Origin: Catenuloplanes indicus
GTDB lineage: Bacteria; Actinomycetota; Actinomycetes; Mycobacteriales; Micromonosporaceae
NCBI RefSeq assembly: GCF_030813715.1
Contig: NZ_JAUSUZ010000001.1
Span: 1,612,001-1,676,000, forward strand
DNA: 64,000 nt
Direction of reading: 5' to 3'
The notes under the pieces are model-generated. The model was not told the DNA's origin. It saw nothing but the letters and a program-made list of their open reading frames with translations, and searched no databases. The stretch's first letter is position 1. Every line of letters begins with the position of its first letter. Below, one piece after another: positions 42,628 through 64,000 of this stretch. The translations under genes and the position numbers were made by a program.

Positions 42628-44457
42628 TCAGGCGGATCCGGCGGTCGAGGAGCGATGCGTCGAGGCCGGCACGGACCGCCGGGCCAGATCCCGGGCCAGG
42701 TCGTGGAAGAGCCGGGACATCCGGTAGGTCGGATCGGCACTGTGCGGCCGGCCGTGCAGGATGCTCTCGTCGGCCAGCCGCTCCAGCAGACGTCGGATCC
42801 GATGCACCGGCAACGGCAGGTGCGGCTGGACCTCGGCCGCCGTGACGCGGCGCGGGTCGATCCGGCCTAGGGCCAGGAAACACCGCCGCTCCTGCTCACC
42901 GAGGTTCCGGTACGCCGACTCCACCACGGCCCGCGCGGACAGGTCCGCGGTCTGCAGTTCCTCCAGTGCCGCGTGGCTCAGCCGGCGGGCCAGCACGCCG
43001 AGGTCCTGCTCCGGGTGGGCCGCCAGGCGGGCGCCGATGATGCTGATCGCCAGCGGCAGGTGGTCGCACATGTCGAGGATGCGCGCCACCGCCTCCGGAT
43101 TCTGCCGCACCCGGTCAGGCCCGACGATGTGGGTGAGCATGTCGGTGGCCGCGTCGGCGTCCAGCGGCTCCAGCGTGAGCCGGTCGTCCGCCTGGATCCC
43201 GGCCAGCGAGCGCCGGCTGGTGACCAGCACCATGCCGGCGCCGAGGCCGGGCAGCAGCGGACGCACCTGGTCGTCGTCGGCCGCGTCGTCGATCAGGATC
43301 AGCGCCCGGCGGTGGGCGAGCACGGACCGATACAGGTTCTGCCGCTGGTCCAGACCGTCGGGTACGGCGGCCGGGTCCACGCCGAAGCTGACCAGCGCGT
43401 CGGACAGCAGGGCGCCGGAGTCGCGCCGGCCCGGTGTGCTGCCCCGCGCGTCGAGGAAGATCTGCCCGTCGGGGAACGCCTCGCGGAGCGTGACGGCCGC
43501 GGCGACCGCGGTCCGGGTCTTGCCGATGCCGGGCATGCCGGTCAGCACGGCGACACCGACCCGGTCGGCACGCCACCCCCGGGATCTGGTCACCAGGTCG
43601 GCGATGCGGCGCAGTTCCTGGCCGCGACCGGAGAAATTCGGGCTGGTCGGCGGCAGCTGCCGGGGCACGGACACGGTGACCGAGAGCTGACCGGCCGATC
43701 CGGGCGCCTCCGGCAGTGAATTGCCCTGCAAGATGGCCGCGTGCGTCTGCTGAAGCAGCGGGCCGGGTTCCACGCCGAGCTCGGCCACCAGCATCCGGCG
43801 GGCGGCGGCGAACGTGGACAGTGCCTCAGCACGACGGCCGGCGCCGTGCAACGCGACGATCAGCGACTGCCACAGTGACTCGTCCAGCGGCCGCTCGTCG
43901 AGCAGGGTGCGCAGTTTCGGAAGCAGATCCGTGTGTTCGCCCAGCCGCATGCGCGCGCCGATCCACGCATGTTGCGCGGACCGGCGCTGCTCCTCGAGAG
44001 CGTTGGTGCGGATCTGGAAGGACGGGCCGAGCTCCAGCCCGGCCAGCGGGCTGCCCCGCCAGAGCCGCAACGCACGGTCCAGCAGGTCGGCGCCGCCGCG
44101 GTCGTCGCCGCGCCGGATCGCTCGCCGCCCGGAGCCGGTCAGCTCGTCGAAGCGCAGGAGGTCCAGCTCCTCGCTCCGGGCGTGCAGACGGTATCCGCCC
44201 GGCGCGCTCTCCAGCCGGTTCCACTGCTGGAGCGACTCCAGCTGGGTGCGCAGCTGGTGGACGTAGGTGCGCACGTTCTGCACGGCGGACGGCGGCGGGG
44301 CGGCCCAGATGCCGTCGACGATGCTCTCCAGCGGCACGACGAATCCAGGATTGAGCAGAAGGATGCCGAGCAGCGTTCGGGCGCGCTTGGATCGTATCTG
44401 CACCGGATGGCCGTACGGGTCGATCAACTCCAATGGTCCCAGCACGCCGAACTTCAC
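42628..44457 (-). CDS. SARP/AfsR-type pathway regulator with NB-ARC domain
   Basis: This 609-residue transcriptional activator has an OmpR-like winged helix (residues 1-95; SKRARTLLGILLLNPGFVVP), a bacterial transcriptional activation domain (about 100-245; RALRLWRGSPLAGLELGPSF), and an NB-ARC ATPase module with Walker A TGMPGIGKTRT (about 306-316) and Walker B-like ALILIDDAADDD. A C-terminal winged helix/helical part follows. SARPs bind direct heptamer repeats about 11 bp apart next to -10 boxes in antibiotic clusters; such a repeat occurs at 58361-58391. It is probably the cluster-situated activator of the genes to its right. Confidence 0.92.
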   Translation of the reverse strand: MKFGVLGPLELIDPYGHPVQIRSKRARTLLGILLLNPGFVVPLESIVDGIWAAPPPSAVQNVRTYVHQLRTQLESLQQWNRLESAPGGYRLHARSEELDLLRFDELTGSGRRAIRRGDDRGGADLLDRALRLWRGSPLAGLELGPSFQIRTNALEEQRRSAQHAWIGARMRLGEHTDLLPKLRTLLDERPLDESLWQSLIVALHGAGRRAEALSTFAAARRMLVAELGVEPGPLLQQTHAAILQGNSLPEAPGSAGQLSVTVSVPRQLPPTSPNFSGRGQELRRIADLVTRSRGWRADRVGVAVLTGMPGIGKTRTAVAAAVTLREAFPDGQIFLDARGSTPGRRDSGALLSDALVSFGVDPAAVPDGLDQRQNLYRSVLAHRRALILIDDAADDDQVRPLLPGLGAGMVLVTSRRSLAGIQADDRLTLEPLDADAATDMLTHIVGPDRVRQNPEAVARILDMCDHLPLAISIIGARLAAHPEQDLGVLARRLSHAALEELQTADLSARAVVESAYRNLGEQERRCFLALGRIDPRRVTAAEVQPHLPLPVHRIRRLLERLADESILHGRPHSADPTYRMSRLFHDLARDLARRSVPASTHRSSTAGSA

Positions 44458-44614
44458 TGACCGCTCCCCGTGTAACTCATGATCAGTTGCGAGGTGGAGC
44501 AGGCGCCGTTTCGGAGATCATTTCGACTCGGTGATCACATTGACGTCCGCTACTCGCGATGTTAATTGCTCAAACGCTAGTTTCCTTCCTTCGGAGGAAT
44601 ATTCCACGACCGGC

Positions 44615-45907
44615 TCAGGAAGTGGCGAGGGCGCCCACCAGATCCACACTGTCCGGTGCGGTCGCCGCGAGTTCCTCGTCGCTCGGCACCCGGCCGGCCA
44701 GCCGGCCGGAGAGGTAGGCCTGGTACGCGTCCGCGTCGTAATAGCCGTGGTCGGAGACGCAGGCGACGATCGGACGGTCCCGGTTGCCCGGATCGCGGGC
44801 CTGCTCGCACGCGTCGTGCACGGCGTACGCCGCCTCGGCCGACACCAGGATGCCCTCGGTACGCAGCAGCAGCCGGGCACTGTCGAAGACCGGCTCCTCC
44901 GGATACGCGACCGGCTGCACCAGCCCTCGCTCACGCAGCGCACTGAACAGCGTCGGCGCGGCGCGGTAGCGGATACCCTCCGCCTGGATCGCAGAGCCGG
45001 TGAATCCCCGGCCGAGCGTGTACATGGCCGCGCGCGGCGTCAGACCGGTGTCGTCGGTGTCGTCGTAGGCGAACGTGCCCCGGGTCAGCACGGGGAACGC
45101 CGCCGACTCGACACTGCGGATCACCGGCGTGCCTCCCCCGGCCAGGAACGGCAGCCCCAGCCCGCCGACGTTCTTGCCGCCGCCGAGATAGCCGATCAGC
45201 ACCGGCGGCCCCACCTCGCCCACCGCTCGCAGCTGCTCCTTCGCCTCCTGGCCGATGACCGTGCTGTGCAGGATCGCGAACGACTCGCTGCCGCCGAGGA
45301 TCCAGCGTGCATCGGACATCTCCGCGGCTCTGGATACCGCCTGGTTCATCGCCTCGCGCAGCGCGCCCGGGTCGGCCCGGATCACCTCGGCGCCGAGCAT
45401 CTCCATCACCAGCCGCCGTCCCGGCTTCCGGTCGTAGCTGCCCGGCACCATGTAGATCACGCAGCCGAGACCGAACCGGCGGGCCGCCGCGGAGATCGCG
45501 GTCCCCCACTGGCCGGCTGCGGTGCTGGTGATCAGCGTCCGGACCCCGGCCGCGCGGTAGTAGTACGCCTGGGCGAGCGCGGTCAGATACTTGTGGGAGC
45601 CGGCCACGTTGCCGGTCTCGTCCTTGAGGTAGATCCGCGCGGTGGTGCCGAGCGCGGCCTCCAGCCGGGTGGCCCGGCGCAGCGGGGTCGGCCGCCACTC
45701 CCGGTACGCCTCGCGCAGCTCCTCCGGGATCGGCACCTCGGCCTGCAGTGGCATCGCCTGACGGACCAGGGCCTTGGGAATGTTCGGCCGGATCGCACGC
45801 GGTGCACCGCCGGTGGCCCGTCGCGGCGGCCGGGGCGGCGGCAGATGCACGTCGCGGTCGGCCAGGACGTTGTACCACGCGGTGACGGGTGGAACGGCGG
45901 CGGTCAC
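44615..45907 (-). CDS. TrpB-like PLP-dependent enzyme (TrpB2 type)
   Basis: This 430-residue enzyme belongs to fold-type II PLP proteins. The N-terminus WYNVLADRDVHLPPPRP is typical of TrpB2. The catalytic Lys lies in DETGNVAGSHKYLTALAQA, and the phosphate loop is IGYLGGGKNVGGLGLPFL (an expanded glycine loop). The C-terminal half carries SEAAYAVHDACEQA. True TrpB joins indole and serine. Inside this cluster, coupled by a 4-bp overlap to an ACP gene, it more likely makes or beta-substitutes a non-proteinogenic amino acid. It is the last gene of the leftward operon. Substrate is inferred, family is clear. Confidence 0.85.
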   Translation of the reverse strand: MTAAVPPVTAWYNVLADRDVHLPPPRPPRRATGGAPRAIRPNIPKALVRQAMPLQAEVPIPEELREAYREWRPTPLRRATRLEAALGTTARIYLKDETGNVAGSHKYLTALAQAYYYRAAGVRTLITSTAAGQWGTAISAAARRFGLGCVIYMVPGSYDRKPGRRLVMEMLGAEVIRADPGALREAMNQAVSRAAEMSDARWILGGSESFAILHSTVIGQEAKEQLRAVGEVGPPVLIGYLGGGKNVGGLGLPFLAGGGTPVIRSVESAAFPVLTRGTFAYDDTDDTGLTPRAAMYTLGRGFTGSAIQAEGIRYRAAPTLFSALRERGLVQPVAYPEEPVFDSARLLLRTEGILVSAEAAYAVHDACEQARDPGNRDRPIVACVSDHGYYDADAYQAYLSGRLAGRVPSDEELAATAPDSVDLVGALATS

Positions 45908-46161
45908 GAGCGCACCCCCGCCGTGCAGCCCTCGACCGCGGCGACCAGGTCGTCGACCGTGCGCAGCTCCGCGGCCAGCACGACCGCGTCGTCGAGCTCC
46001 CGCCCGGTCTCGTCCTCCAGCCGGACGAAGACCCGGGTGAGCCCGAGCGAGGTGAGTCCCAGGTCGTCCTCCAGCCGGGTGGTGCCGATGATCGGCACAT
46101 CCGCCGACGTCTCCTGGGCGAGCACCCGTCGTACCGTGCTCGCGATGTCGCTGCCGGACAT
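45904..46161 (-). CDS. Acyl/peptidyl carrier protein 1
   Basis: This 85-residue carrier protein contains a phosphopantetheine-type site, LEDDLGLTSLGLTRVFVRLE, in which the usual DSL is TSL; the Ser is present. It would be primed by the phosphopantetheinyl transferase of the same operon and loaded by one of the free-standing adenylation enzymes. A strong GGAGGAG lies just before the ATG at 46161, and its stop overlaps the TrpB-like start. Proximity suggests that the amino acid handled by the TrpB-like enzyme may be carrier-bound. Confidence 0.83.
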   Translation of the reverse strand: MSGSDIASTVRRVLAQETSADVPIIGTTRLEDDLGLTSLGLTRVFVRLEDETGRELDDAVVLAAELRTVDDLVAAVEGCTAGVRS

Positions 46162-46186
46162 GTTCTCCTCCGAGGGTGCGATGGGA

Positions 46187-47338
46187 TCAGGCACCGCGAA
46201 CCGGTTCGCGGTTGACCGAGCGGATGACGGTGTCGAGCGCGGCGAGCGGTAGGTCGATCGGCACGGGGACCAGCGGGTAGCCGCCGTCGCCGGTGAGGAC
46301 ATGGCCCGGGGCGTCGAGCAGCACCATCGCGATCTGCCCGGCCACGTGCGGCAGGTAGCCGCGCTTGTTGTCCTTGGCCAGGATGCCGCGCACCGCGTCC
46401 GGGTCCATCCCGCCGAGCCGCGTCGCGGCATCGGGCAGCCGTAGGCAACGGATCAGCTGGTAGTGCCGTTCGACGTCACGGCTGTCGAGGTGCCCCAGCA
46501 TCCGGCTGACCTCGGCGGCGACCAGCATTCCCCAGGCGACGGCCTCGCCGTGGCTCATGGCGCCCCGGGCCACGAACTCCAGCGCGTGCCCGGTGGTGTG
46601 CCCGTACTCGAAGATCAACGCCTCTCGGCGCTCGCGCGGGTCGACGCGCAGGAACGGCGCCTTCGCCTCCCGCCCGATCTCCAGCAGGTCCAGCAGCGCC
46701 GATTCCCGATCCACGGACAGCCGGTGCAGTGCGTCGATGAGTACGTCCTGCCGGGCCGGAAGCACGGCCAGCACGTTCTTCACCATCTCGGCGAGGCCGG
46801 TGAGCATCTCGGCGTCCGGCACGCCGGCCAGCCACCGCAGGTCACAGGCGATCAGCGAGGGCGCGTAGTACGTACCGCACAGGTTCTTGCCGCCGCTGAG
46901 GTTGACCGCCTGCTTCACCGACAGCACCGAGTCGAACGCCGCGACCGGGGTGGTCGGCAGGTGCACCAACCGGGTGCCCCGGTACATCAGCGCCGCCACC
47001 AGCCCGGCCACGTTGCCGACCATGCCGCCGCCCATGCCGATCACCACCGAGCCGCGGGTCGCGCCCCGGGCGATCGCGTGCTCGAGGATCTCCTCGACCA
47101 GGGGCAGCCGCTTCTGCCGGTCGCCGGCCTCGACGTCGTACCGGGTCACCGGCAGGACCGCACGCAGGCGAGCGGCGATCACGTCGGCGTGCCCGGCCAC
47201 CCTCCGGTCGGCCACCAGCACGGCCGAGTCCGCCCGGTCCATCATGGTCGTGATCGCGTCGGCTATCTCGCCCGCACAGTCCATGCCGTACAGGTACGGC
47301 ACGTCCTTGCCGTCCAACGGCACCAGTCGCTCATGCAA
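46187..47338 (-). CDS. 2-Deoxy-scyllo-inosose synthase-like sugar phosphate cyclase
   Basis: This 383-residue enzyme of the dehydroquinate-synthase superfamily has the deoxyinosose-synthase hallmarks GGGMVGNVAG (residues 103-112; dehydroquinate synthase has GDLAG), SVLSVKQAVN with Lys142, SGGKNLCGTYYAP, and FEYGHTTGHALE (Glu244) with His in SHGEA. It would convert glucose 6-phosphate to the carbocycle 2-deoxy-scyllo-inosose, using NAD+ and a divalent metal. The matching DOI aminotransferase is encoded at 58440. It lies between the adenylation and ACP genes in the operon. Other sugar phosphate cyclases (for example aminoDHQ or valiolone type) fit these motifs less well. Confidence 0.82.
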   Translation of the reverse strand: MHERLVPLDGKDVPYLYGMDCAGEIADAITTMMDRADSAVLVADRRVAGHADVIAARLRAVLPVTRYDVEAGDRQKRLPLVEEILEHAIARGATRGSVVIGMGGGMVGNVAGLVAALMYRGTRLVHLPTTPVAAFDSVLSVKQAVNLSGGKNLCGTYYAPSLIACDLRWLAGVPDAEMLTGLAEMVKNVLAVLPARQDVLIDALHRLSVDRESALLDLLEIGREAKAPFLRVDPRERREALIFEYGHTTGHALEFVARGAMSHGEAVAWGMLVAAEVSRMLGHLDSRDVERHYQLIRCLRLPDAATRLGGMDPDAVRGILAKDNKRGYLPHVAGQIAMVLLDAPGHVLTGDGGYPLVPVPIDLPLAALDTVIRSVNREPVRGA

Positions 47339-47342
47339 CGGA

Positions 47343-48956
47343 CTACACCTTCCTCTGGGATGGGATCGTCGGCCCGGCCTCGGTCGCCCATGCTGACAGC
47401 GCGACCCGGTCGAGCTTTCCGTTCTCGGTCACCGGCAGGCCGTCGACGACCCAGATGCGGCCGGGAACCATGTACGCGGGCAGGGCGGTGCGGCAGAACG
47501 CCGCCGCCTCGGTGGGGTCGAACGGGCCCGCGTCCGGCGCCTGCACGATCATCGCGGCCAGTTCGACGTCACCGTCGGCCTGCGGGATGACGACGGCCGC
47601 CGCTGCCGCGACCCCGGGCAGGTCGAGCAGGCGGCGCTCGACCTCGGCCAGCTCGACACGGTTGCCCCGGATCTGCACCTGCCCGTCGGCGCGTCCCGAG
47701 AAGTACAGCTCGCCGTCCGGACCGAGGCAGCCGAGGTCGCCGGTGCGCAGCACGACCTGGTTGCTGCGCGGGTCGGTCGGATCGGGCACCAGCGCCGACC
47801 GGGTCGCCTCGGGATCGTCCCAGTACCCGGTGAACAGGGCCGGACTGCGCAGGTACATCTCACCGTTGGCGCCCGGGCCGGTCACCGGCGCACCGTCCGG
47901 CCCGATCAGCAGCAGTTCCGCGCCCGGGTGGGCACGGCCGATGGGCGGCTGGTCCAGGTCATCCGGCAGCGGCCGGGGCACGTCCGCGAACGCGCAAGCC
48001 ATCGATTCGGTCGCGCCGTAGCAGTTGACGATCCGGGCCTGCGGCAGGGCGGCCTGCAACCGGCGCAGCTCGGGCATCGGGAACCGCTCGCCGCAGAACA
48101 GCACGCCACGCAGTCCGTGCAAGGCGGCCAGGCCGTTCCACGAGTGCCGCAGAACCTGACGCCAGATCGACGGCACGCCGTTGACCTGTGTCGTGCCGGT
48201 CTCCCGGAGCACCGTGAGGAAGCGTGACGGCCAGCGCAGCAGGTCTCGGGGCACCGGCACCACCGAGGCGCCGCTGCCCAGCGCGAGGCCGATGTCGAGC
48301 AGGGAGAAGTCGAACTGGAACGGCGAGGTGCTGGCGACCCGGTCGGCCGGGCCGACGAGACCCTGAGTGAGCATGCCGTGGTAGAAGGCGACGACGGCCC
48401 GGTGGCTCATCACCACGCCCTTCGGCCGGCCGGTGGTGCCGGACGTGAAGATCATGTAGGCGGTGTCGGCCGCCACCACCTCGCGCCGGTGCCGGACCCG
48501 GCGCGCGGGCCGGCGCCGCAGCCGCAGCCCTTCGGGAGCCAGCGTGCCGACGCCACCGGCGCCGGCCAGGAACTGCCGCGGCTCACCGGCGCTGAGGTAG
48601 AGCGCAGGCTCGGTCGACGCGGCGATCGTGGCCAGCCGCACGTCCGGCGTCTGCGGGCTGACCGGGACGAAGGCCACCCCGAGCCGGCCGCACGCCAGGA
48701 ACGTACCGATCGCCGCAGCCGAGGTGTCGGTCTCCAGCAGCACCCGGTCGCCGGGGCCGAGGCCCGCGTCCGCCAGGGCCGCGGTGGTGTCCCGTACGCG
48801 GGCGGCCAGTTCACCGTACGACGTGGTACGCAGCTCGCCGTTCCCAGCGAACTCGATCACCGCCGGTCGCGCCGGTGTGGTCCCGGCAGCGGCCAGCAGG
48901 AAGTCGGGCATGGTCTCACCGGGCGCGTGCACCGGCGGTGGAACGGTGGTGGTCAT
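47343..48956 (-). CDS. Free-standing amino-acid adenylation enzyme 1
   Basis: This 537-residue AMP-forming ligase has the ordered core motifs IFTSGTTGRPKGVVMSH, the specificity-pocket strand FQFDFSLLDI with the Asp expected for alpha-amino-acid substrates, NCYGATESM, VLRTGDLG and the catalytic Lys in ENGKLDRVAL. No carrier domain is fused, so it loads one of the discrete ACPs. The pocket starts D-F-L; I cannot assign the amino acid. Its start overlaps the upstream gene by 4 bp, and the cyclase gene begins 4 bp after its stop, so expression is tightly coupled. Confidence 0.92.
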   Translation of the reverse strand: MTTTVPPPVHAPGETMPDFLLAAAGTTPARPAVIEFAGNGELRTTSYGELAARVRDTTAALADAGLGPGDRVLLETDTSAAAIGTFLACGRLGVAFVPVSPQTPDVRLATIAASTEPALYLSAGEPRQFLAGAGGVGTLAPEGLRLRRRPARRVRHRREVVAADTAYMIFTSGTTGRPKGVVMSHRAVVAFYHGMLTQGLVGPADRVASTSPFQFDFSLLDIGLALGSGASVVPVPRDLLRWPSRFLTVLRETGTTQVNGVPSIWRQVLRHSWNGLAALHGLRGVLFCGERFPMPELRRLQAALPQARIVNCYGATESMACAFADVPRPLPDDLDQPPIGRAHPGAELLLIGPDGAPVTGPGANGEMYLRSPALFTGYWDDPEATRSALVPDPTDPRSNQVVLRTGDLGCLGPDGELYFSGRADGQVQIRGNRVELAEVERRLLDLPGVAAAAAVVIPQADGDVELAAMIVQAPDAGPFDPTEAAAFCRTALPAYMVPGRIWVVDGLPVTENGKLDRVALSAWATEAGPTIPSQRKV

Positions 48957-49855
48957 CGGACCTCCCGGATCGCGGTGGTCATCGTGGCGGTCAGCTCGCC
49001 GAAGGCCCGGGCCACCAGACCCGGCCGGGGATTGCCCCGGGCGGCGGAGTCCGCGGCGAACCGAAGGGTGCGCGGCAGCGCCGCCCAGCCGCGCGCCGCA
49101 GCCTCGGCCGGTGCCGGCGGCACTGCGCCGTCCTCGGTCAGCCGGAGTAGCCGATGACGCTGGTGGCGGGCGACCGCCCACAGGTCGTCGACGTGACGGG
49201 CGAGCGCTGCGGGGTCGGCGGAGAACCGGTCGGCGAGGTAGCACAGAGCCTCGGCCGGGTCGTCCAGCCACCGCCCGGGACGCGGTGCCGGCGGCCGGGC
49301 CTGCTGCCGGGCCAGCCAGCGGTACCGGGCGGCGGACGGTGTCGGCACGGGGTGGCCCAGCGCATACGTGTCCCTGGCGCTCACCTCCGGTGGCAGGGTG
49401 CCCGGCGGGCTGAGCGCACGGCGCAGCTCGTCATCGCTCATCCGGCCGCGGTACGGCAGTTGCTCGCCACGCGGCAGCAGCGCCTGGAAGTCGTCGCGGA
49501 CCTCCCACCGGCCGTCGTGCAAACCGTGCAGCAGCAGCCAGTGCGGCACGTCGGCCACACCGTGGTTCGGCGACCAGGGCAGATACCGGGTGTTGCCGAC
49601 GGCCAGCACAGCCGCGGCCTCGCGCAGCTCGCCACGCAGTCCTTCCCGGGCGGCCGCCCAGCTGTCCGCCGCGCGGTAGCCCAGCTCCTGTCCACCGGGG
49701 AGAGTGTCGAACCGGTCGTGGTGACAGAACCCGGGAACGCCGTCGGCCCGCACCCGCAGCCGGACCGCGTGCGCCAGGCGCCCCCGTACGTCCGGCACCT
49801 CCGATTCCAGCAGGGCGACCAGGTTCGCCGTGTAGCAGCTCAGTTCCGCGGTCAT
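48953..49855 (-). CDS. BtrH-like putative cysteine acyltransferase A
   Basis: I do not recognise a certain family. The 300-residue protein has an N-terminal Cys in LSCYTANLVALL, a His in VADVPHWLLLHGLHDG and an Asp in WEVRDDFQALLPRG. This C-H-D layout recalls papain-like BtrH/peptidase-C39 proteins that move acyl groups from carrier proteins to amines in butirosin-type pathways. The protein encoded at 51838 shares the CxxANLxxL box and the same general order. The C-terminal half is helical and Arg-rich. It is coupled to its neighbours on both sides by 4-bp overlaps. Function is a hypothesis. Confidence 0.5.
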   Translation of the reverse strand: MTAELSCYTANLVALLESEVPDVRGRLAHAVRLRVRADGVPGFCHHDRFDTLPGGQELGYRAADSWAAAREGLRGELREAAAVLAVGNTRYLPWSPNHGVADVPHWLLLHGLHDGRWEVRDDFQALLPRGEQLPYRGRMSDDELRRALSPPGTLPPEVSARDTYALGHPVPTPSAARYRWLARQQARPPAPRPGRWLDDPAEALCYLADRFSADPAALARHVDDLWAVARHQRHRLLRLTEDGAVPPAPAEAAARGWAALPRTLRFAADSAARGNPRPGLVARAFGELTATMTTAIREVR

Positions 49856-51826: not shown

Positions 51827-51837
51827 CGTCGACTCCT

Positions 51838-55629: not shown

Positions 55630-55895
55630 GCGCCCCGGCCGCCGAGGTACGGGACGCCGTGATCCGCACCGTGAGCGCGGTCCTGGCGGTCGACGAGCGA
55701 ACCGTGGCCGGCACCGCGAGCCTGACCGACATCGACCGGTTCAACTCGTTCCGCATGGTGGAGATCGTCGAGCGGCTGGAGTCCGAACTCGGCGTGGAGA
55801 TCGACGCGGACGACCTGATCCCCGAGAACCTGCGGCACGTGGACCGGCTGAGCCGGCTGTTCGCGGCCGCCCGGCAACGAACGGAGCGATCATGA
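55626..55895 (+). CDS. Acyl/peptidyl carrier protein 3
   Basis: This 89-residue carrier protein has the modification site TDIDRFNSFRMVEIVERLES, with NSF at the position of DSL. The surrounding helix pattern and the distal VEIDADDLIPENLRHVDRLS fit ACPs. It is coupled by 4-bp overlaps to the aminotransferase and to the acyl-ACP dehydrogenase, so its cargo is probably desaturated by the latter. Confidence 0.85.
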   Translation: MSAPAAEVRDAVIRTVSAVLAVDERTVAGTASLTDIDRFNSFRMVEIVERLESELGVEIDADDLIPENLRHVDRLSRLFAAARQRTERS

Positions 55896-57067
55896 CCGTC
55901 GCACCGGCCCGTACCTCGGCCGCCGACATCCTGTCGCGTCTTCCCGGCGTACGGGAGGTGGTCCGCGAGCACGCCGCCCGGTGCGATCGGGACGCGGTCT
56001 TCCCCGAGGCGGCTCTGACCGCGTTGCGCCGCAGTGGGCTGCTCGGCCTGACCGTGCCGGCCGGCGACGGCGGGCCCGGTGGCACGCTGGCGCAGATGCT
56101 GCACGCCTCGGCCGAGCTGTCCCGGGACTGCACGTCGGTCGGAATGATCTTCACGATGCACTGTCAGCAGGTGGACGCGCTGGTCCGGTACGGTTCGCCG
56201 CGGCTGCGGGCCGAACTGCTGCCCCGGATCGTGCGCGGAGAGCTCTACCTCGGCTCGGTGACCACCGAGCCGAAGGGCGGTGGTCACCTGCTCACCTCCT
56301 CGGCCCGGCTGCACGGCGACGCCGCGGCACTGACCGTCGACCGGATCGCGCCCGTGCTGACCGGCGGCGGATACGCGGACGGTTTCCTCATCACCATGCA
56401 GGCCCCCGGTGCACGCTCGCCCGGCGAGGTGTCGCTGGTCTACGCCGCCCGGGACCAGCTGGCGGTCACCCCGGCGGGCGGCTGGGATCCGCTCGGTATG
56501 CGCGCCACCGCCAGCGGTGCCATGCGGCTGTGCGGCGAGATACCCGGTGATCAGGTCATCGGGGAGCACGGCCGGTTCCGTGACATCGCGGTGGCGGTGT
56601 TCGGCCCACTGGCACACCTGGGCTGGGCCGCATGCTGGCTGGGCGCCGCGGACGGCGCGCTGGCCCGCACGGTTCGGCTGCTGCGCAGCCCGGCGGAGCG
56701 TGGGAGGACCGGATCGGAGACCGCCCGGCGCCGGCTGTCCCGGGTACGTCAGCGGCTGGACACCGTGCACGCGCTGATCCAGCACGCCTGCGGGGTACTG
56801 ACCGCCGGCGTCGAGAACGTCACCGCTCCCCCCGCCCAGCTGCTGCTCAACGCGGTCAAGCTGACCGCGTCGGAGCAGTGCCTGGCCGCCGTCGACGACC
56901 TGGTGGAGCTGGCCGGGCTGCGGCACGGCTATCAGCGCGGGTCGGAGCTGGGCCTGGAGCGGACACTGCGGGACCTGCGGTCGGCATCGCTGAATTACAG
57001 CAACGACCGGCTGCACGACGCGGACGGAGTGCTGGTGATGCTGGACCGGGAGGTCCGCCATGTCTGA
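55892..57067 (+). CDS. Acyl-CoA/ACP dehydrogenase-like flavoprotein 2
   Basis: This 391-residue protein has the acyl-CoA dehydrogenase fold: the N-terminal FPEAALTALRRSGLLGLTVP, a middle domain with LYLGSVTTEPKGGGHL and ADGFLITMQAPGARSPGEVS, and the C-terminal LERTLRDLRSASLNYSND. As with its counterpart at 50466, it directly follows an ACP gene, pointing to oxidation of a carrier-bound chain. It ends the rightward operon and is convergent with the MFS gene only 4 bp away. Confidence 0.87.
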   Translation: MTVAPARTSAADILSRLPGVREVVREHAARCDRDAVFPEAALTALRRSGLLGLTVPAGDGGPGGTLAQMLHASAELSRDCTSVGMIFTMHCQQVDALVRYGSPRLRAELLPRIVRGELYLGSVTTEPKGGGHLLTSSARLHGDAAALTVDRIAPVLTGGGYADGFLITMQAPGARSPGEVSLVYAARDQLAVTPAGGWDPLGMRATASGAMRLCGEIPGDQVIGEHGRFRDIAVAVFGPLAHLGWAACWLGAADGALARTVRLLRSPAERGRTGSETARRRLSRVRQRLDTVHALIQHACGVLTAGVENVTAPPAQLLLNAVKLTASEQCLAAVDDLVELAGLRHGYQRGSELGLERTLRDLRSASLNYSNDRLHDADGVLVMLDREVRHV

Positions 57068-57071
57068 ACGG

Positions 57072-58250
57072 TCAGCGCGCGGCGGGCTCGGTCACGTGGT
57101 GCCGGATACCGCCGCCGGCCAGCGCCAGCAACGCGGACGCGACGACCAGGGTCCACAGCGCCCAGCGGAGGCCGAACTCCCCGGCCAGCAGACCGATCAA
57201 CGGCGGACCGATGAAGTACGCGGGCCATTGGCCGAGCACCGCGACGGAGACGCCCTCCTCGGAGGTCAGGCCGGGTTGCCGACCGGCATAGCTCATCACG
57301 GTCGGAGTGACGCAGCCGAGCCCCAGCCCGAGCACCGCGAATCCGGCGAACACCGCAGGCGCGTGCGGCACGGCCAGCGCCAGGGCCAGCCCGGCTCCCG
57401 CGACGGCCACCGAGAGCCGGAGGAAACGCAGGCGTCCGATCCGGTCCGCGATCCGGTCACCGAAGAAGCGCGCCGCCGTGATGGCCAGCGAGTAGCAGGT
57501 GAACGTCACCGCACCGGCCGCGGCCGCCGCACCGACCGAGTCGACGGTGTAGATGGCGCTCCACTGCCCGGCGGCGCTCTCGGTCATCGAGGCGAGGAAC
57601 GCCATCCCGGCGAGCAGCCCGAGCTGGGGCGTGAGCCGGTCCCGCAGCCGGCGCCGGCGACGGTCGTCCGCGGGGCCCGGCGCGGGGTCGTCCGGCAGCC
57701 GGCGCCCGGTCGCGACGAGCAGCACGCCGAGCACGACGGTGTTGAGCGTGAACTGCACCTGCGGTGTGATCCCGTTGGCGGCTGCCACGCTGCCGAGCAG
57801 GCCGCCGGCCAGCGTGCCACCGCTGAAACAGGCATGGAACGTGGACATCAGGGCCCGGCCGTACCGCCGCTCCACCTCCACGGCCTGCGCGTTGACCGGA
57901 GTGGCCAGCAGGTTCGCCGCGAAGCCCCAGACGAACAGCGTGCACACCAGCGCGGCGGGCGCGGTCGAGCCGGCCATCAGCGGGCCGTTGACGAGCAGCA
58001 GCGACGCACCGGCGAGGGTGAGCCGGCTCTTGCGTACGCGCCCGACCAGGACCGTCACCAGCACGAGGGAGAGCAGCTGCCCGGCGGTGGTCGCGGTGGT
58101 CACGAGTCCCCAGCCGGTGTCGCCCAGCCCGACGGCACGCCGCACGTCGGGAATGCGGGAACTCCAGTTACCGATGATCGAGCCCATGATGCAGAAGCAG
58201 ACGGCCACCGCGAGCCGTGCCCGTCGATCCACGGCCTGCTGAACGTCCAT
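57072..58250 (-). CDS. MFS-family exporter
   Basis: This 392-residue integral membrane protein has about 12 predicted helices and the MFS loop motifs SRIPDVRRAVGLGDTGWGLV and FGDRIADRIGRLRFLRLS. It resembles bacterial drug-export or FsrA-type permeases. In this location it is the likely exporter of, and self-resistance factor for, the cluster product. It is transcribed divergently from the DOI aminotransferase gene from the 189-bp region at 58251-58439 and ends tail-to-tail with the dehydrogenase gene. Confidence 0.88.
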   Translation of the reverse strand: MDVQQAVDRRARLAVAVCFCIMGSIIGNWSSRIPDVRRAVGLGDTGWGLVTTATTAGQLLSLVLVTVLVGRVRKSRLTLAGASLLLVNGPLMAGSTAPAALVCTLFVWGFAANLLATPVNAQAVEVERRYGRALMSTFHACFSGGTLAGGLLGSVAAANGITPQVQFTLNTVVLGVLLVATGRRLPDDPAPGPADDRRRRRLRDRLTPQLGLLAGMAFLASMTESAAGQWSAIYTVDSVGAAAAAGAVTFTCYSLAITAARFFGDRIADRIGRLRFLRLSVAVAGAGLALALAVPHAPAVFAGFAVLGLGLGCVTPTVMSYAGRQPGLTSEEGVSVAVLGQWPAYFIGPPLIGLLAGEFGLRWALWTLVVASALLALAGGGIRHHVTEPAAR

Positions 58251-58360
58251 GTCGGTCTCCCGGGCGTAGCGGGCGGTATGCCGGGCCGACGGTACCGGCG
58301 ATCGACGCGGCGCGCAGAGATCAACCCACTATGGCGGCACCGAAGGCTGTATCTAGCAGC

Positions 58361-58391: not shown

Positions 58392-58439
58392 GGCACAAAG
58401 CAATGTCCGAGTCGTTGATACCCGATGGGAGACGCCCCC

Positions 58440-59711
58440 ATGGTTCAGACCACCAGCGTTGCGACACTCGCCGTGGACGGCGGCGATCCGGTGCGCGATC
58501 CGGCACGGCGATGGCCGGAGTGGCCGGTACCGGCGCCGGGCCTGCTCGAGTCTCTGGGCACAGTGGTGCGCAGCGGCCGCTGGGCGATCAGCAGCCCCGG
58601 CCACGGCAACCTCTTCGAGCGCCGATTCGCCCGGCTGTGGTCGGCGTACGTCGGCACCCGGCACTGCGTGCCCACCGACCACGGGTCCAGCGCCCTGGTG
58701 ATCGCGCTGGAGTCACTCGGCCTCGATCCCGGCGACCGGGTGCTGGTGCCCGCGCTGACCTGGACCGCGTCGGCGACCGCGGTGCTCCGCGCCGGCCTGC
58801 TCCCGGTACTGACCGATGTCGACCCGGCCACCGGCACCATCGGCCCGGAGCACCTCGACCCGGCCGTCGGCGCACGCGCGGCGATCGTGGTCCACTGGGC
58901 GTGCGCGATGGCCGACGTACCGGCGATCACCGCGGTCGCGGACGGCCTCGGCATCACGGTGATCGAGGATGCCGCCCAGGCGCACGGCGCACGGTGGCTC
59001 GGCCGGCCCGCGGGTTCTCTGGGCCGGCTCGGCTGCTTCAGCATGCAGCACGCCAAGGTCCTGACCTGCGGGGAGGGTGGCGCGGTGGTCACCGACAGCG
59101 ATGAACTGGATCGCCGGCTACAGGAGCTGCGGGCCGACTCGCGCCGTTACCGCGCGCCGCACGAGACAGGTGCGCTGGAGCTGGCCGAGACGGCCGGGGT
59201 GATGGGCGCGAATTTCTGCCTCAGCGAATTCGGTGCGGCGGTCCTGTGCAGTCAGCTCGGTCTGCTCGACGATCAGCACGAGACCCGCAACCGCAACTAC
59301 CGCCTGCTCGACGATCTGCTGTCCGGGATAGACGGCGTCCGCCTGCTGGCGCACCGTCCCGAGCAGGACCGGCTGTCGCTCTACGAGGTGCCGATCGTCT
59401 TCGAGGACCTCCCGCCCGGACGGGACAACCGGTGGGTCGCCGCGGCACTCGCCGCCGAACTGGGTACCCGGGTCTATCCGCCGCGGGTGCCGCTGCACCG
59501 CAGCCCGCTGCTGCGGCCGTCGACCAAGCCCGCCCTGGCTCCGCTGGCCGCCGAGTTCGGCCGGCTGCACGCCGGACGCCGGTTCCCCGGCGCGGAGCAC
59601 CTGGCCGGGCACGCCGTGCTGCTGCACCACAGCGCTTTCCTCGGTCCGGCGGAGGACATGGTCGACGTGGCGGCGGCGGTCGGCAAGGTCGCCGCCGGCC
59701 GGCCGCTCTGA
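58440..59711 (+). CDS. 2-Deoxy-scyllo-inosose aminotransferase (DegT/DnrJ/EryC1 family, BtrS/StsC type)
   Basis: This 423-residue PLP enzyme matches the aminocyclitol aminotransferases: PEWPVPAPGLLESLGTVVRS at the start, SGRWAISSPGHGNLFERRFA, LVPALTWTASATAVLRAGLL, the catalytic Lys in FSMQHAKVLTCGEGGAVV, LQELRADSRRYR and GANFCLSEFGAAVLCSQLG. BtrS/StsC-type enzymes transfer the amino group of glutamine to 2-deoxy-scyllo-inosose or scyllo-inosose. With the DOI synthase-like protein in this cluster, DOI is the expected substrate, giving 2-deoxy-scyllo-inosamine. The ATG at 58440 has GGGAG 8 bp upstream; an ATG at 58425 lacks one. Confidence 0.87.
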   Translation: MVQTTSVATLAVDGGDPVRDPARRWPEWPVPAPGLLESLGTVVRSGRWAISSPGHGNLFERRFARLWSAYVGTRHCVPTDHGSSALVIALESLGLDPGDRVLVPALTWTASATAVLRAGLLPVLTDVDPATGTIGPEHLDPAVGARAAIVVHWACAMADVPAITAVADGLGITVIEDAAQAHGARWLGRPAGSLGRLGCFSMQHAKVLTCGEGGAVVTDSDELDRRLQELRADSRRYRAPHETGALELAETAGVMGANFCLSEFGAAVLCSQLGLLDDQHETRNRNYRLLDDLLSGIDGVRLLAHRPEQDRLSLYEVPIVFEDLPPGRDNRWVAAALAAELGTRVYPPRVPLHRSPLLRPSTKPALAPLAAEFGRLHAGRRFPGAEHLAGHAVLLHHSAFLGPAEDMVDVAAAVGKVAAGRPL

Positions 59712-59720
59712 GGAGGGACG

Positions 59721-60815
59721 GTGAACCCGATGGTGGAGCACGGGGTGTCCGTGGTCGTCCCGGTCCGCGGCCGGGTGCCACAGCTGCGCCGGTTGCTGGA
59801 CAGTCTGACAGTGGCCGTACGCCGTTGCCCGGAGCCGGTCGAGGTGATCGTGGTGGACGATTCGGCGGCGGCCGATGCCCGGCGGCATCGGGAGTCCTGC
59901 GATCGGGCGGATGCTCGGTACCTGCGCGGGCCACGGCACGTCGGCGCCAAGCGCAACCTCGGCGTCCGCAACGCCCGGTACGACCTCGTACTGTTCATCG
60001 ACTCGGACTGCCGGGCCAGCCCGGACCTGATCCGCCGGCATGCCGCGACGCTGCGAGCGGCGCCGCCCGGCATCGGCGGCGTGACCGGCCCGTCCGCACC
60101 GGTTCCCGGCCGCGGATATCTCGACCGGGTGATGGCAGGCTCGGAGGTGCTCAACGGCGACCTGTCGCGGCCGGCGCGGTACGCCCAGCTGACCTGGGCG
60201 ACGACCTGCAATCTGGCGGTACGCCGGGCCGCCTTCGACGCCGCCGGCGGTTTCCCGGAGCGGTCGCTGACCGTGGTCGCCGGCGAGGACGTCGAGCTTG
60301 GCGTGCGGCTGTCCGGCGCCGGCTACGCGATCCGGTGCGACCCGGCGGCCGGCGTCGAGCACGACCCGCCCACCAGCGGCGGCGTACGCGGCCTGGTCCG
60401 GCGGCTGTACACCTACGGCCGTTCGGAGCAGTGGCTGTGCGCGATTCACCCGGAGCGGCGCCGTTTCGTGTGGAACCCGGCGACGGTGCTCGGCGTGGCC
60501 GCGCTCACCGCCGCCACGGTACCGGCCCGGGTGCGCGGGCCGGTCCTGCTCGGTGTGCCGCTGCTGGCCGGTGCCGTGCTCACCGTGCGGCTGCGCCGGG
60601 AGCTGGCCCGGGATCGGACCGGGCCGGTCACCGAGGCGCTCACCCGGGTGGTGCTGGAGCTGTCGTTCGACGTGGGCGCCGCGGTCGCGGCCGTGCAACT
60701 GGGCCGGCCCGCGCTGTTGCTCGGCGGGCTGCATCCGGTCGACGAGCGGGACGTCCTGCGGACCGCACCCCCGGGCGTGACGGAGGAGTTCGCCCTCGTG
60801 GAAGGACAGGCCTGA
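59721..60815 (+). CDS. Family 2 glycosyltransferase with C-terminal membrane segment
   Basis: This 364-residue GT-A enzyme begins VSVVVPVRGRVPQLRRLLDS. It has the nucleotide-sugar DxD motif in VLFIDSDCRASPDLIRR, a conserved WATTCNLAVRRAAFDAAGGF and the acceptor-side VVAGEDVELGVRLSGAGYAI. A hydrophobic C-terminal part (about residues 255-285) may anchor it to the membrane. It probably transfers an activated sugar to the aminocyclitol or its conjugate. The GTG at 59721 follows an AGGAGG; its stop overlaps the next start by one base (TGATG). Confidence 0.87.
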   Translation: MNPMVEHGVSVVVPVRGRVPQLRRLLDSLTVAVRRCPEPVEVIVVDDSAAADARRHRESCDRADARYLRGPRHVGAKRNLGVRNARYDLVLFIDSDCRASPDLIRRHAATLRAAPPGIGGVTGPSAPVPGRGYLDRVMAGSEVLNGDLSRPARYAQLTWATTCNLAVRRAAFDAAGGFPERSLTVVAGEDVELGVRLSGAGYAIRCDPAAGVEHDPPTSGGVRGLVRRLYTYGRSEQWLCAIHPERRRFVWNPATVLGVAALTAATVPARVRGPVLLGVPLLAGAVLTVRLRRELARDRTGPVTEALTRVVLELSFDVGAAVAAVQLGRPALLLGGLHPVDERDVLRTAPPGVTEEFALVEGQA

Positions 60816-62227
60816 TGGCTCCGGTCACCGAGACCGCCGTACGGCGGCTGGCCCCCGGCCAGGAGACGCTCTGGCACTTCATGCGCGCACTGTCGCCGCA
60901 CGACCCCGGCGACTCCCGGGTGACCGTGCTGGACGTGCGCGAGCTGACCGGCGACCTCGACGCGGGCCGGCTGCGGGACGCGGCGGCCGTGCTGACCCAG
61001 CGGCATCAATCGCTGCGGCTCGCGTTCGACGGTTTCGGTCCCGACCCGGAGCTGCGGCTCACCGGAGCGACCGCGGTGCCGCTGACCCGGATCGACCTGA
61101 CCGGCGCCGCCGGCCGGCCGGACGAGCTGCGCCGGCTGGTCAGGCTCGAACGCGTCCGCTCGTTCGACCTGTGCAGCGGCCCGCTGTGGCATCTGGGCCT
61201 GATCCGCACCGCACCGGACCGGCACACGCTGACGCTCAGCCTCAGCCACGTCATCGCCGACCAGTGGGCGGCCGACCTGTTCGTCGAGGACCTGTTACGG
61301 GTCTATTCCGCCACGCCCGCGGAGGCGGCACGGCTGGCCGAGCCGGCCGTCACGCTCGACGAGATCACCGCGCTGCACCGGGCGGTACTCCCCGGCGGCG
61401 AGAATCGGCTGCGGTACTGGCGGGAGAACCTGACCCCGCTGCCGGACCGGTCGATCCTGCCGGCACTCGACGCGTCACCGGAGGTGGACCTCGGTGACGA
61501 AGGGTCGCGGTCGTTCACGTTCGGCGTGGCCGTGGCCGGTGACCTGCCGCGGCTCGCCTGGCGGGCGCGCACCACACCGTTCGTCGCGCTGCTCGCCGCG
61601 TACCAGCTGACGCTGGCGCTGCGCACCGGCCTGGACCGGATCGTGCTGGGCACCACCACCCTGGGCCGGGACGCGCCGGCCGCCCGGGAGGCACTGAGCC
61701 AGTTCACCAACAACGTCTACCTGAACCTGCCGCTCGACCCGGCCATGCGCCTGGTCGACGTGGTGGCCGCGGCCGGCCGGGCGATGTCCGACGCGGTCGG
61801 CAACGTCGCCTCGTTCGGCCAGATCCGCCGCGCGGTCGGGCCGGGCACCCCGTCGTCGTTCCTGGAGCTCTACCACGGCTGGTTCCAGTCCTGGGGAGTG
61901 CCGCGCCCCGACCCCTCCGTGCCGGGGCTGCTGGTGCGGCGGTCCGGGAACGAGGCGGACGGTCCGGCGGCACGCGCGCCGAAGACCGAGGCCACCCACC
62001 CGGGTACGCGCGCCGCACACCTCAAGGCCGGCACACCGCACGTGATGGTGGCTCCGGACCGCGGCGGCGGCCGGTGCATCTATCACCCCGGCTTCTTCGC
62101 CACCGAGACCGTCGACCAGCTGATCGAGGACTACGTGCACGTGGTCGCGGCCGTCGTGCACGCGCCCGAACTGCGCGCCGGAGAGCTCCGGTTGCCCTCC
62201 CGACCGACCGCGAAGGAGACCCGATGA
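60815..62227 (+). CDS. Stand-alone condensation-domain enzyme
   Basis: This 470-residue protein has the NRPS condensation fold without carrier or adenylation partners. The active-site loop reads LSLSHVIADQWAADLF. The catalytic second His (residue 145) and Asp of HHxxxDG are present, but the first His is Ser and the Gly is Gln. The later latch-region motif FTNNVYLNLPLDPAMRLVDV is intact. It would form an amide between a carrier-bound acyl group and an amine such as an aminocyclitol or a second carrier-bound amino acid. It is translationally coupled to the glycosyltransferase and the adenylation gene. Confidence 0.87.
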   Translation: MAPVTETAVRRLAPGQETLWHFMRALSPHDPGDSRVTVLDVRELTGDLDAGRLRDAAAVLTQRHQSLRLAFDGFGPDPELRLTGATAVPLTRIDLTGAAGRPDELRRLVRLERVRSFDLCSGPLWHLGLIRTAPDRHTLTLSLSHVIADQWAADLFVEDLLRVYSATPAEAARLAEPAVTLDEITALHRAVLPGGENRLRYWRENLTPLPDRSILPALDASPEVDLGDEGSRSFTFGVAVAGDLPRLAWRARTTPFVALLAAYQLTLALRTGLDRIVLGTTTLGRDAPAAREALSQFTNNVYLNLPLDPAMRLVDVVAAAGRAMSDAVGNVASFGQIRRAVGPGTPSSFLELYHGWFQSWGVPRPDPSVPGLLVRRSGNEADGPAARAPKTEATHPGTRAAHLKAGTPHVMVAPDRGGGRCIYHPGFFATETVDQLIEDYVHVVAAVVHAPELRAGELRLPSRPTAKETR

Positions 62228-63756
62228 GCGGCAGCACCCTGTTCGGCCTGGTCGCGGAGAGCGCTCGGCGGTGGCCCGGCCGGGTGGCCCTGGAGGTCGG
62301 CGGTGAGTCGGTCACGTATGCGGAACTGGCCGGGACCGCGGCCCTGCTCGCCGCCCGGCTGGGCGAGCCGGCACCGGCCGCGGTCGGACTGCTCGCCTCA
62401 CGCAGCGTGGCCGCGTACGCCGGATATCTCGCGACGCTGCTGACCGGCGCCACGGTCGTGCCCCTCAACCCCCGCGCGCCGGTGGCCCGCAACCGCCTGA
62501 TCTGCCGCCGGGCCGGGGTCACCCGCGTGGTCGCGGACACCGCGAGCGCGGCGCAGGCTTCCGAGCTGCTGCCGGACGGCGATCCGGTCCGCCTGCCGGA
62601 GGGCTGGCGCACCTCGCTGCCCGGCCCGCCCGGTGCCGGGCCGGCCGGCCCGGACGACGTCGCCTACCTGCTGTTCACGTCCGGATCGACCGGGGAGCCG
62701 AAGGCCGTGCCGATCCGGCACCGGCACGTGACCGGCTACGTCGGCCACTGTGCGCGGCGGTACGCGGTCGGGCCCGGGAGCCGCCTGTCGCAGACCTTCG
62801 ACCTGACGTTCGACCCGTCGGTGTTCGACATGTTCGTCGCCTGGAGCGCGGGCGCGACGCTGGTGGTGCCCGAGCCCGACGAGATCCTCACCCCGGTGCG
62901 GTTCGTCAACCGGGCCGCGATCACCCACTGGTTCTCGGTGCCGTCGGTGATCTCGGTGGCGGCCCGGTTCCGGGCGCTGCGCCCGGACAGCATGCCGACG
63001 CTGCGCTGGAGTTTGTTCGCCGGCGAGCAGCTCACGCTGGACGCGGCACGGGCGTGGGCGCGGGCTGCGCCGCGGAGCACGGTGGAGAACCTGTACGGGC
63101 CGACCGAGCTGACCGTGACCTGCACCGGGTACCGTCTGCCGGCCGATCCGGACGCGTGGCCGCGCACCTCCAACGGCACGGTACCGATCGGGGTGCCGAA
63201 CCCGGGTCTGGCCGCCGTGCTGGTCGGCCCGGACGGCACCGTCACCGACGACGGCGAGCTGTGCATGCGCGGCCCGCAGCGGTTCGACGGCTACCGCGAC
63301 CCGGCCGACGACCGCGGGCGGTTCCTGCGCCGCCGCGCCGAGCGGTATCTGCCGGTCGAGCACCCGGAAACCGACGCCGACTGGTACCGCACCGGCGACC
63401 GGGCCCGGATGGAGGACGGGGTGCTGGTCCACTGCGGGCGCCTCGACGACCAGATCAAGATCCGTGGGTACCGGGTGGAGCTGGCCGAGATCGAGTCGGT
63501 GCTGCGCCGGCATCCGGGCGTGCTGGAGGCGGTGGTCCTGGCCGGCACCGGCGCTGACGGTGAGGTGCGGCTGCGGGCCGTGCACACCGGCGTACCGGTG
63601 CCCGCCGGGGAACTGGCCGGCCTGGCCGGGGAGAGCCTGCCCTGGTACATGGTGCCCGAGTCGTTCGCCCATCGCGACGCGCTGCCGGTGAACGCCAACG
63701 GCAAGATCGACCGGCGACGGCTCGCCGCCCTCGACCTGGAAGGAGCACGCGCATGA
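62224..63756 (+). CDS. Free-standing amino-acid adenylation enzyme 2
   Basis: This 510-residue AMP-forming ligase has LLFTSGSTGEPKAVPIRHRH, the pocket strand FDLTFDPSVFDMF with the substrate-amine-binding Asp, LYGPTELTVTCTGYRL, WYRTGDRARM, KIRGYRVELAEIESVL and the catalytic Lys in VNANGKIDRRRL. No carrier domain is fused. Its pocket (D-P-F start) differs from that of the adenylation enzyme at 47343, so two different amino acids are probably activated. It overlaps the condensation gene and the flavin reductase gene by 4 bp each. Confidence 0.92.
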   Translation: MSGSTLFGLVAESARRWPGRVALEVGGESVTYAELAGTAALLAARLGEPAPAAVGLLASRSVAAYAGYLATLLTGATVVPLNPRAPVARNRLICRRAGVTRVVADTASAAQASELLPDGDPVRLPEGWRTSLPGPPGAGPAGPDDVAYLLFTSGSTGEPKAVPIRHRHVTGYVGHCARRYAVGPGSRLSQTFDLTFDPSVFDMFVAWSAGATLVVPEPDEILTPVRFVNRAAITHWFSVPSVISVAARFRALRPDSMPTLRWSLFAGEQLTLDAARAWARAAPRSTVENLYGPTELTVTCTGYRLPADPDAWPRTSNGTVPIGVPNPGLAAVLVGPDGTVTDDGELCMRGPQRFDGYRDPADDRGRFLRRRAERYLPVEHPETDADWYRTGDRARMEDGVLVHCGRLDDQIKIRGYRVELAEIESVLRRHPGVLEAVVLAGTGADGEVRLRAVHTGVPVPAGELAGLAGESLPWYMVPESFAHRDALPVNANGKIDRRRLAALDLEGARA

Positions 63757-64000
63757 CGACGACCGTCGACTTCCGTACCGTGGCGTCCCGCTTCGCCACC
63801 GGCGTCGCGGTGGCGACCAGTACCGCGGGCGGGGTGCCGTTCGCCACCACGGTGAACGCGTTCACCACCGTGTCGCTGGATCCGACGCTGCTGCTGGTCT
63901 GTCTGCGGACCGGGTCTCGGCTGCTCGGCGCGATCGAGCGGTCCGGGGTGTTCGCGGTGACCGTGCTGTCCGGCACCCAGCGCGACTACGCACAGCGGTT
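63753..64000 (+). CDS. Flavin reductase-like protein (partial, runs off the window)
   Basis: The first 82 residues (FRTVASRFATGVAVATSTAG, then GVPFATTVNAFTTVSLDPTL) match the FMN-binding split-barrel flavin reductases of two-component monooxygenases. It would supply FMNH2 to a monooxygenase, which may be encoded beyond the window. The ATG overlaps the stop of the adenylation gene by 4 bp, so the operon and the cluster continue to the right. Confidence 0.85.
   Translation, partial: MTTTVDFRTVASRFATGVAVATSTAGGVPFATTVNAFTTVSLDPTLLLVCLRTGSRLLGAIERSGVFAVTVLSGTQRDYAQR

Follow-up and report, generated by a model that had tools for sequence, protein, structure and literature searches.

The window examined here, a 64,000-nucleotide stretch of Catenuloplanes indicus DNA (positions 1,612,001-1,676,000 of a 9.25 Mb genome), carries in its right part genes for a 2-deoxy-scyllo-inosose (DOI) synthase, a DOI aminotransferase, free-standing adenylation enzymes and discrete acyl carrier proteins (ACPs), for which an earlier reading of the sequence (the original prediction) had proposed an acylated, DOI-derived aminocyclitol, a proposal that the present analysis supports. 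The DNA to the right of the window was joined to it for gene calling and Pfam annotation, and the genes were found to form a single block, from a SARP-type regulator gene at 42628 to an ABC exporter gene ending at window-equivalent position 75066, about 11 kb past the end of the window. The flanks are unrelated glycoside hydrolases: on the left a GH62 enzyme with a ricin-type lectin domain (window 40719-42200), and on the right a large GH2 β-galactosidase-like protein (L004:15718-20000). The 19 genes from SARP to A2 (names as in Table 1) were recovered at the coordinates of the original prediction or within one start codon of them, and their enzyme classes agreed with those it had listed; one of the 19, a class I/II pyridoxal phosphate (PLP) enzyme, AT1, was not on its list. 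All genes are intact and lie in few operons, with 4-base overlaps between most adjoining genes and with several genes of a β-amino-acid cassette interleaved with others in shared operons.

About 18 of the genes are clustered again, at ~40-70% identity, in Streptomyces carminius TRM SA0054, so their grouping in the window is not due to chance. The S. carminius block encodes a short-chain dehydrogenase/reductase (SDR), an ACAD2-ACP3 fusion, AT1, KamA, H2, ACP2, ACAD1, H1, A1 and the DOI synthase, and also an ACP, a LysR regulator, DegT, GT2, a condensation (C) enzyme, the phosphopantetheinyl transferase, A2, the MFS exporter and SARP.

The predicted aminocyclitol core

Compared with proteins in the PDB, the cyclase scored 213 bits against BtrC (2d2x), 126 bits against the best dehydroquinate (DHQ) synthase and 67 bits against a 2-epi-5-epi-valiolone synthase (EEVS)-type cyclase (4p53). 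In a maximum-likelihood tree whose DHQ synthase side included the genome's own AroB-family protein, it fell in the BtrC clade, which was split from the DHQ synthases at 100/100, and it formed with 12 other cyclases (50-62% identity) a subclade apart from BtrC (99/98). The DOI synthases of the set, BtrC included, have the motif EYGHT and the DHQ synthases have Asn at the Glu position, in a comparison that leaves out L025, L030 and one DHQ synthase row, where the pattern did not fit. Identities as a DHQ synthase or an EEVS were ruled out by the tree and the bit scores; by clade the cyclase is a DOI synthase, with conversion of glucose 6-phosphate to DOI as its predicted activity. The DegT-family enzyme matched DOI aminotransferases best (5w70, 313 bits; 5w71, 275; BtrS 2c7t, 271), at about twice the score of the next class, 3-amino-5-hydroxybenzoate synthase (157 bits). 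Thus neither protein grouped with the DHQ synthases or unrelated sugar aminotransferases that were the alternatives to the original prediction. As only one DOI aminotransferase and no clear dehydrogenase for 2-deoxy-scyllo-inosamine were found in the cluster, the core is more safely read as 2-deoxy-scyllo-inosamine than as 2-deoxystreptamine.

A homologue of the GT2 glycosyltransferase adjoins both a DOI synthase and a DegT gene in L021, L023, L024, L026 and L027, and a DOI synthase in L028; the top NCBIfam match of GT2, under the cut-off, was the mycofactocin glycosyltransferase MftF. Other arrangements were seen around related cyclases. Compact GT2'-DegT-GT2-DOI synthase-MFS cassettes (L023, L024, L026 and L027, from Micromonospora, Streptomyces fumigatiscleroticus and two Glycomyces) suggest a simple glycosylated aminocyclitol, and in Dactylosporangium vinaceum (L028) a DOI synthase and GT2 lie within an apparent multimodular nonribosomal peptide synthetase (NRPS) cluster. 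Actinoplanes italicus (L025) and Nonomuraea fuscirosea (L030) combine a DOI synthase with a free-standing C enzyme, an aldehyde dehydrogenase, a β-ketoacyl-ACP synthase III-like protein, a BtrK-type decarboxylase, an ACP and a ketosynthase-ACP pair, another DOI hybrid cluster.

A predicted β-amino-acid cassette and candidate amide synthases

The original prediction had placed β-amino acyl units on trans-acting carriers, and this can now be made more specific: KamA, AT1, A1 and A2 are predicted to form a cassette of the incednine type, comprising an aminomutase, a β-glutamate decarboxylase, a 3-aminobutyrate:ACP ligase and an amide-forming ligase, so that the acyl part would be nameable as an incednine-type β-amino acid. 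The corresponding IdnL-type starter steps have been described for the incednine pathway (PMC11284099). A1 scored 621 bits against IdnL1 (5jjq) and 597 bits against HitB, the β-amino acid:ACP ligases of incednine and hitachimycin (PDB entry identities according to PMC11253843), and its pocket motifs, FDFSLLD and NGVPS, are those of macrolactam-type A1 proteins adjoining other KamA genes. Because A1 is an IdnL1-type ligase, a proline-to-pyrrole cassette (adenylation enzyme, peptidyl carrier protein (PCP) and acyl-CoA dehydrogenase-like (ACAD) enzyme) was ruled out. A2 matched IdnL7 (6akd, 335 bits) and 8k4r (322 bits), and enzymes of this VinM type place a small L-amino acid on the β-amino group (PMC11284099). 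Its pocket reads DPS, as in the S. carminius and L136 proteins, instead of the DCA of the enzyme in the macrolactam-type locus L131; ACP2 is the best match of the carrier beside A1 and A2 in that same locus.

KamA is far from lysine aminomutase. Asp293 of the latter, which binds the lysine side chain, aligns with Arg330 of KamA, a residue conserved across the seven proteins compared; this Arg would fit an acidic substrate, and KamA is probably a glutamate 2,3-aminomutase. Orthologues of AT1 (64-65%) lie beside KamA and A1 in L131 and L134. In L131, KamA, AT1, a VinK-type acyltransferase, A2, A1 and an ACP are encoded together next to an unannotated 2,398-codon open frame, taken to be a polyketide synthase (PKS), and this grouping therefore puts AT1 in the slot of IdnL3, the β-glutamate β-decarboxylase (PMC9230918). 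A VinK_C domain is present in the L131 genome and was found nowhere in the window genome or that of S. carminius, and Pfam annotation, which ran from window 40719 to about window-equivalent 81249, detected no PKS domain in any gene. The locus thus lacks the pair, VinK-type acyltransferase and type I PKS, that marks a macrolactam cluster; the three clusters with the DPS pocket in A2 all lack VinK in the stretches read. The genome of L134, where orthologues of A1, AT1 and KamA adjoin, also has no VinK_C, possibly a second non-macrolactam use of the cassette.

Candidates for the joining step are the paralogues H1 and H2 and the free-standing C enzymes C1 and C2, both of which keep their HxxxD motifs. 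Cys7, His105 and Asp121 were invariant in an alignment of H1, H2 and their relatives. With a low-confidence model of H1 (pLDDT 58.7; the fold evidence covers H1 only), the top Foldseek matches were AziU3, CtaG and CcbD (E 6e-4, versus 0.12 for the next), and structure alignment to these three with VIA-align gave Z of 10.2-11.6 across residues 5-300. CtaG variants named in PDB titles affect C11, H128 and D144, with a His-Asp spacing equal to that of H1 and H2. CcbD joins carrier-bound proline to an amino sugar as an amide by a ping-pong mechanism (PMC12945683), and CcbD/LmbD and CtaG have the fold and a Cys-His-acid triad in common with H1; here, unlike CcbD, there are two paralogues, the invariant acid is Asp (Glu is reported for CcbD) and the predicted donor is a β-aminoacyl unit. 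H1 and H2 thus share the triad, H1 would have a CcbD/CtaG-type fold, and an amide synthase role is predicted for both, which strengthens the carrier-dependent joining step of the original prediction. The label "BtrH-like" given there holds in kind but not by family: BtrH_N (PF14399) gave no match to H1 or H2 even at E 10 and none genome-wide at E 0.001, so these proteins may act like BtrH yet are not members of its family by Pfam.

Carriers, flavoenzymes and the right-hand module

In NCBIfam, ACAD1 matched MbtN best and a prolyl-PCP dehydrogenase next, and the relatives of ACAD2 are FadE16 and DszC-type monooxygenases. Dehydro-amino acyl units may be formed, the sole basis for them being these ACAD homologues. 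The gene of the TrpB-like enzyme overlaps that of ACP1 by 4 bases, an adjacent ACP and TrpB pair occurs again in L136, and no orthologue of the TrpB-like enzyme was found in the S. carminius cluster; the same 4-base overlap in the two clusters (window 44615-46161, L136:10772-12426) hints that a carrier-bound amino acid may undergo TrpB-type chemistry. The Streptomyces loci L136 and L137 hold orthologues of H1, H2, ACAD1, ACAD2, ACP2, A2 and TrpB along with a VinO/BtrK-type decarboxylase.

Table 1. Genes of the block that lie in or cross into the end of the window. Functions are predicted from homology.
Feature	Position	Strand	Evidence
SARP-type regulator	42628..44457	-	Pfam BTAD 129 bits, NB-ARC 40 bits; 40% orthologue ends S. 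carminius cluster
TrpB-like (TrpB2) PLP enzyme	44615..45907	-	NCBIfam TrpB-like PRK12391, 386 bits over cut-off
ACP1	45904..46161	-	Pfam PP-binding; Ser motif GLTSL
DOI synthase	46187..47323	-	best PDB match 2d2x BtrC; DOI synthase clade
A1, β-amino acid:ACP ligase, IdnL1/HitB/CmiS6 type	47343..48956	-	best PDB match 5jjq IdnL1
H1, cysteine-protease-fold carrier-dependent amide synthase, CcbD/CtaG type	48953..49855	-	triad, Foldseek, structure alignment
4'-phosphopantetheinyl transferase	49852..50454	-	Pfam ACPS
ACAD1, acyl-ACP dehydrogenase-like flavoenzyme	50466..51575	-	best PDB match MbtN acyl-ACP dehydrogenase
ACP2, probable β-aminoacyl carrier	51572..51841	-	Pfam PP-binding; 66% orthologue in L136
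H2, paralogue of H1, Cys-His-Asp triad	51838..52704	-	alignment with H1; no Pfam match
KamA-type radical SAM aminomutase, probably glutamate 2,3-aminomutase (IdnL4-like)	53003..54340	+	KamA subfamily, CHAYCTYC motif
AT1, class I PLP enzyme, slot of β-glutamate β-decarboxylase IdnL3	54337..55629	+	Pfam Aminotran_1_2
ACP3	55626..55895	+	Pfam PP-binding; S. carminius counterpart fused to ACAD2
ACAD2, flavoenzyme probably acting on ACP3	55892..57067	+	Pfam ACAD domains
MFS exporter	57072..58250	-	Pfam MFS_1; 56% orthologue in S. carminius
L-glutamine:DOI aminotransferase (DegT)	58440..59711	+	best PDB match 5w70
GT2 glycosyltransferase, DOI-synthase-linked	59721..60815	+	Pfam GT2; gene neighbourhoods
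C1, free-standing condensation enzyme	60815..62227	+	Pfam Condensation; motif SHVIADQ
A2, amide-forming aminoacyl ligase, IdnL7/VinM type	62224..63756	+	best PDB match 6akd IdnL7
Flavin reductase, crossing window end	63753..64000	+	Pfam Flavin_Reduct on full gene L004:3753-4259

Beyond the window the block continues with the flavin reductase, a LysR regulator, a luciferase-like monooxygenase (LLM), GTx and an aminoglycoside phosphotransferase (APH)-type kinase, and further right with an ATP-grasp-like protein, ACP4, a radical SAM/SPASM protein, the free-standing C2 and an ABC-2 type exporter. GTx had no family match and a single-sequence model of very low confidence (pLDDT 40); it is called a putative glycosyltransferase after a GT-B-like motif noted at its C-terminus by visual inspection. 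The twitch/SPASM radical SAM protein, ACP, APH-type kinase and glycosyltransferase-like protein are conserved in three genomes (L004:5235-10964, L110:4493-9394, L111:8728-12225), in two of the three with the ATP-grasp-like protein. Similarity of the radical SAM protein to BtrN was confined to a C-terminal segment (22 bits), and the aligned region holds its C-terminal Cys 319, 337, 378 and 381. Since in each of the three genomes its gene sits with that of an ACP and not with that of the DOI synthase, we favour its predicted action on an aminoacyl-ACP over dehydrogenation of the aminocyclitol.

The right module was absent from the 61 kb of S. carminius sequence read, and its radical SAM protein was unmatched throughout that genome at E 0.001. 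In Streptomyces sp. NRRL F-6676, a DOI synthase, DegT, a C enzyme, an SDR and an LLM are followed by a further C enzyme, a radical SAM protein of 75% identity, ACP4, ATP-grasp, APH, GTx and GT2. The 20 kb read in Nonomuraea fuscirosea encodes the radical SAM protein, ACP4, GTx and APH but no DOI synthase. At E 1e-45 the cyclase had a match in 5 of 399 genomes of the same order, none except the window's own above 46% identity, and the cluster is therefore sporadic; no close DOI synthase was found in four other genomes of the genus. In its make-up the cluster resembles a mosaic put together from three blocks, each of them conserved.

A proposed pathway and its rivals

From the gene content, homology classes, conserved linkage and the lack of VinK in the genome and of a PKS in the annotated stretch, all of which are direct observations, we consider it reasonably likely that the cluster specifies a DOI-derived, probably glycosylated aminocyclitol amidated by an aminoacyl-3-aminobutyryl-type unit, with the individual reactions, their order and the product all deduced from homology. 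The DOI synthase would convert glucose 6-phosphate to DOI, to which DegT would add the amino group of glutamine to give 2-deoxy-scyllo-inosamine. In a parallel branch, KamA would convert L-glutamate to β-glutamate, AT1 would decarboxylate this, giving 3-aminobutyrate or a closely similar compound, A1 would load the product on ACP2, and A2 would link a small amino acid through an amide bond to the β-amino group of the 3-aminobutyryl unit, with possible oxidation of the carrier-bound unit by ACAD1 and ACAD2. H1/H2 and/or the free-standing C enzymes would transfer the unit to an amino group on the aminocyclitol or on an aminosugar attached to it, replacing the VinK-dependent transfer to a PKS in macrolactam producers; GT2 and the putative GTx would glycosylate, and the right module (ATP-grasp, ACP, twitch radical SAM and kinase) would probably provide a second carrier-bound amino acid. 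More tentatively, the locus may stand for a new class, (aminoacyl)-3-aminobutyryl N-acylated aminocyclitols, in which a starter cassette has been rerouted from PKSs to lincosamide-type amide synthases and an ATP-grasp/ACP/radical SAM module adds a second amino acid.

Several points weigh against this pathway. A2 has Pro in place of the Cys of characterised VinM-type enzymes (Cys217), which contacts L-Ala (PMC11253843), and its substrate specificity may therefore differ. The equation of AT1 with IdnL3 draws on gene neighbourhood and the name "β-decarboxylase" rather than on an IdnL3 sequence, and an ordinary aminotransferase would be compatible with the AT1 sequence, a reading we disfavour given the neighbourhood. 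The H1 fold match derives from a low-confidence model. In addition, the 40 kb read at L136/L137, where neither a DOI synthase nor KamA is encoded, has orthologues of H1, H2, ACAD1 and ACAD2, so H1 and H2 need not act on an aminocyclitol.

The block could also hold two adjacent pathways: the left module, from SARP to LysR, would make a β-aminoacyl aminocyclitol, and the right one (LLM, GTx, APH, ATP-grasp, ACP4, radical SAM, C2 and ABC exporter) would yield a product of its own or extend the first one optionally. The S. carminius locus, with the left module only, and the N. fuscirosea genes agree with this, but in NRRL F-6676 the right module adjoins another DOI synthase with DegT, C, LLM and GT2, and just 53 bases separate the modules in the window genome; a division into two pathways is unlikely, though worth keeping in mind. 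An aminoglycoside of the butirosin kind, with a 2-deoxystreptamine core and an amino acyl side chain made on an ACP, for which the radical SAM protein would take the BtrN role and DegT would act twice, would likewise account for the DOI synthase and aminotransferase and for the position of the four Cys residues, and the ATP-grasp protein, ACP, LLM and flavin reductase recall BtrJ, BtrI, BtrO and BtrV. This is rendered improbable by the short, 22-bit alignment to BtrN, by the place of the radical SAM gene beside an ACP in all three genomes, and by the lack of a BtrK-type decarboxylase among the Pfam matches of the cluster and of any BtrH_N protein in the genome. Finally, the missing VinK and PKS partners would suit a decayed macrolactam starter cassette lying by chance next to an aminocyclitol cluster and contributing nothing to it. 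Such decay is very hard to reconcile with intact genes interleaved in shared operons, with the same mixture in S. carminius at ~40-70% identity while four congeneric genomes have no close DOI synthase, and with the change to a DPS pocket in A2 common to three clusters without VinK in the stretches read.

Among known systems, butirosin of Bacillus circulans shares with the proposed pathway a DOI synthase, a DOI aminotransferase and an ACP-made amino acyl group to which a second amino acid is ligated; the window differs in its VinM/IdnL1-type acyl chemistry, in having no BtrH_N or BtrK-type protein and in its glycosyltransferase classes. Nabscessins A-C of Nocardia abscessus are acylated 2-deoxy-scyllo-inosamines and thus have the core proposed here, with a putative cluster that includes a DOI synthase (PMC11364655), but their acyl groups are aromatic (3-hydroxybenzoate, 6-methylsalicylate), six ORFs are involved and no β-amino acid cassette is described. 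The incednine cassette (IdnL1, L3, L4 and L7; PMC11284099) would share the aminomutase, the decarboxylase slot, IdnL1- and IdnL7-type ligases and a stand-alone ACP, whereas the window cluster is without a VinK-type acyltransferase or PKS and its predicted acceptor is an aminocyclitol or aminosugar. No described cluster with a matching gene combination was found in the literature searched, MIBiG not having been compared; the gene set is conserved but apparently undescribed, all its parts coming from known enzyme families or folds.

The DOI-derived amino ring is the core of kanamycin-like antibiotics, and the β-amino acid cassette otherwise serves, as far as is known, to start macrolactams. If the proposed pathway is correct, DOI aminocyclitol chemistry would not end with the classical aminoglycosides and the nabscessins but would take in a modular family whose single core is paired with acyl logic of the NRPS, PKS or macrolactam type. 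It would become testable whether cysteine-fold amide synthases that depend on a carrier serve generally to couple amino acids to aminosugars, and this genome, Streptomyces carminius and Streptomyces sp. NRRL F-6676 would offer loci for compounds with aminoglycoside-like cores.

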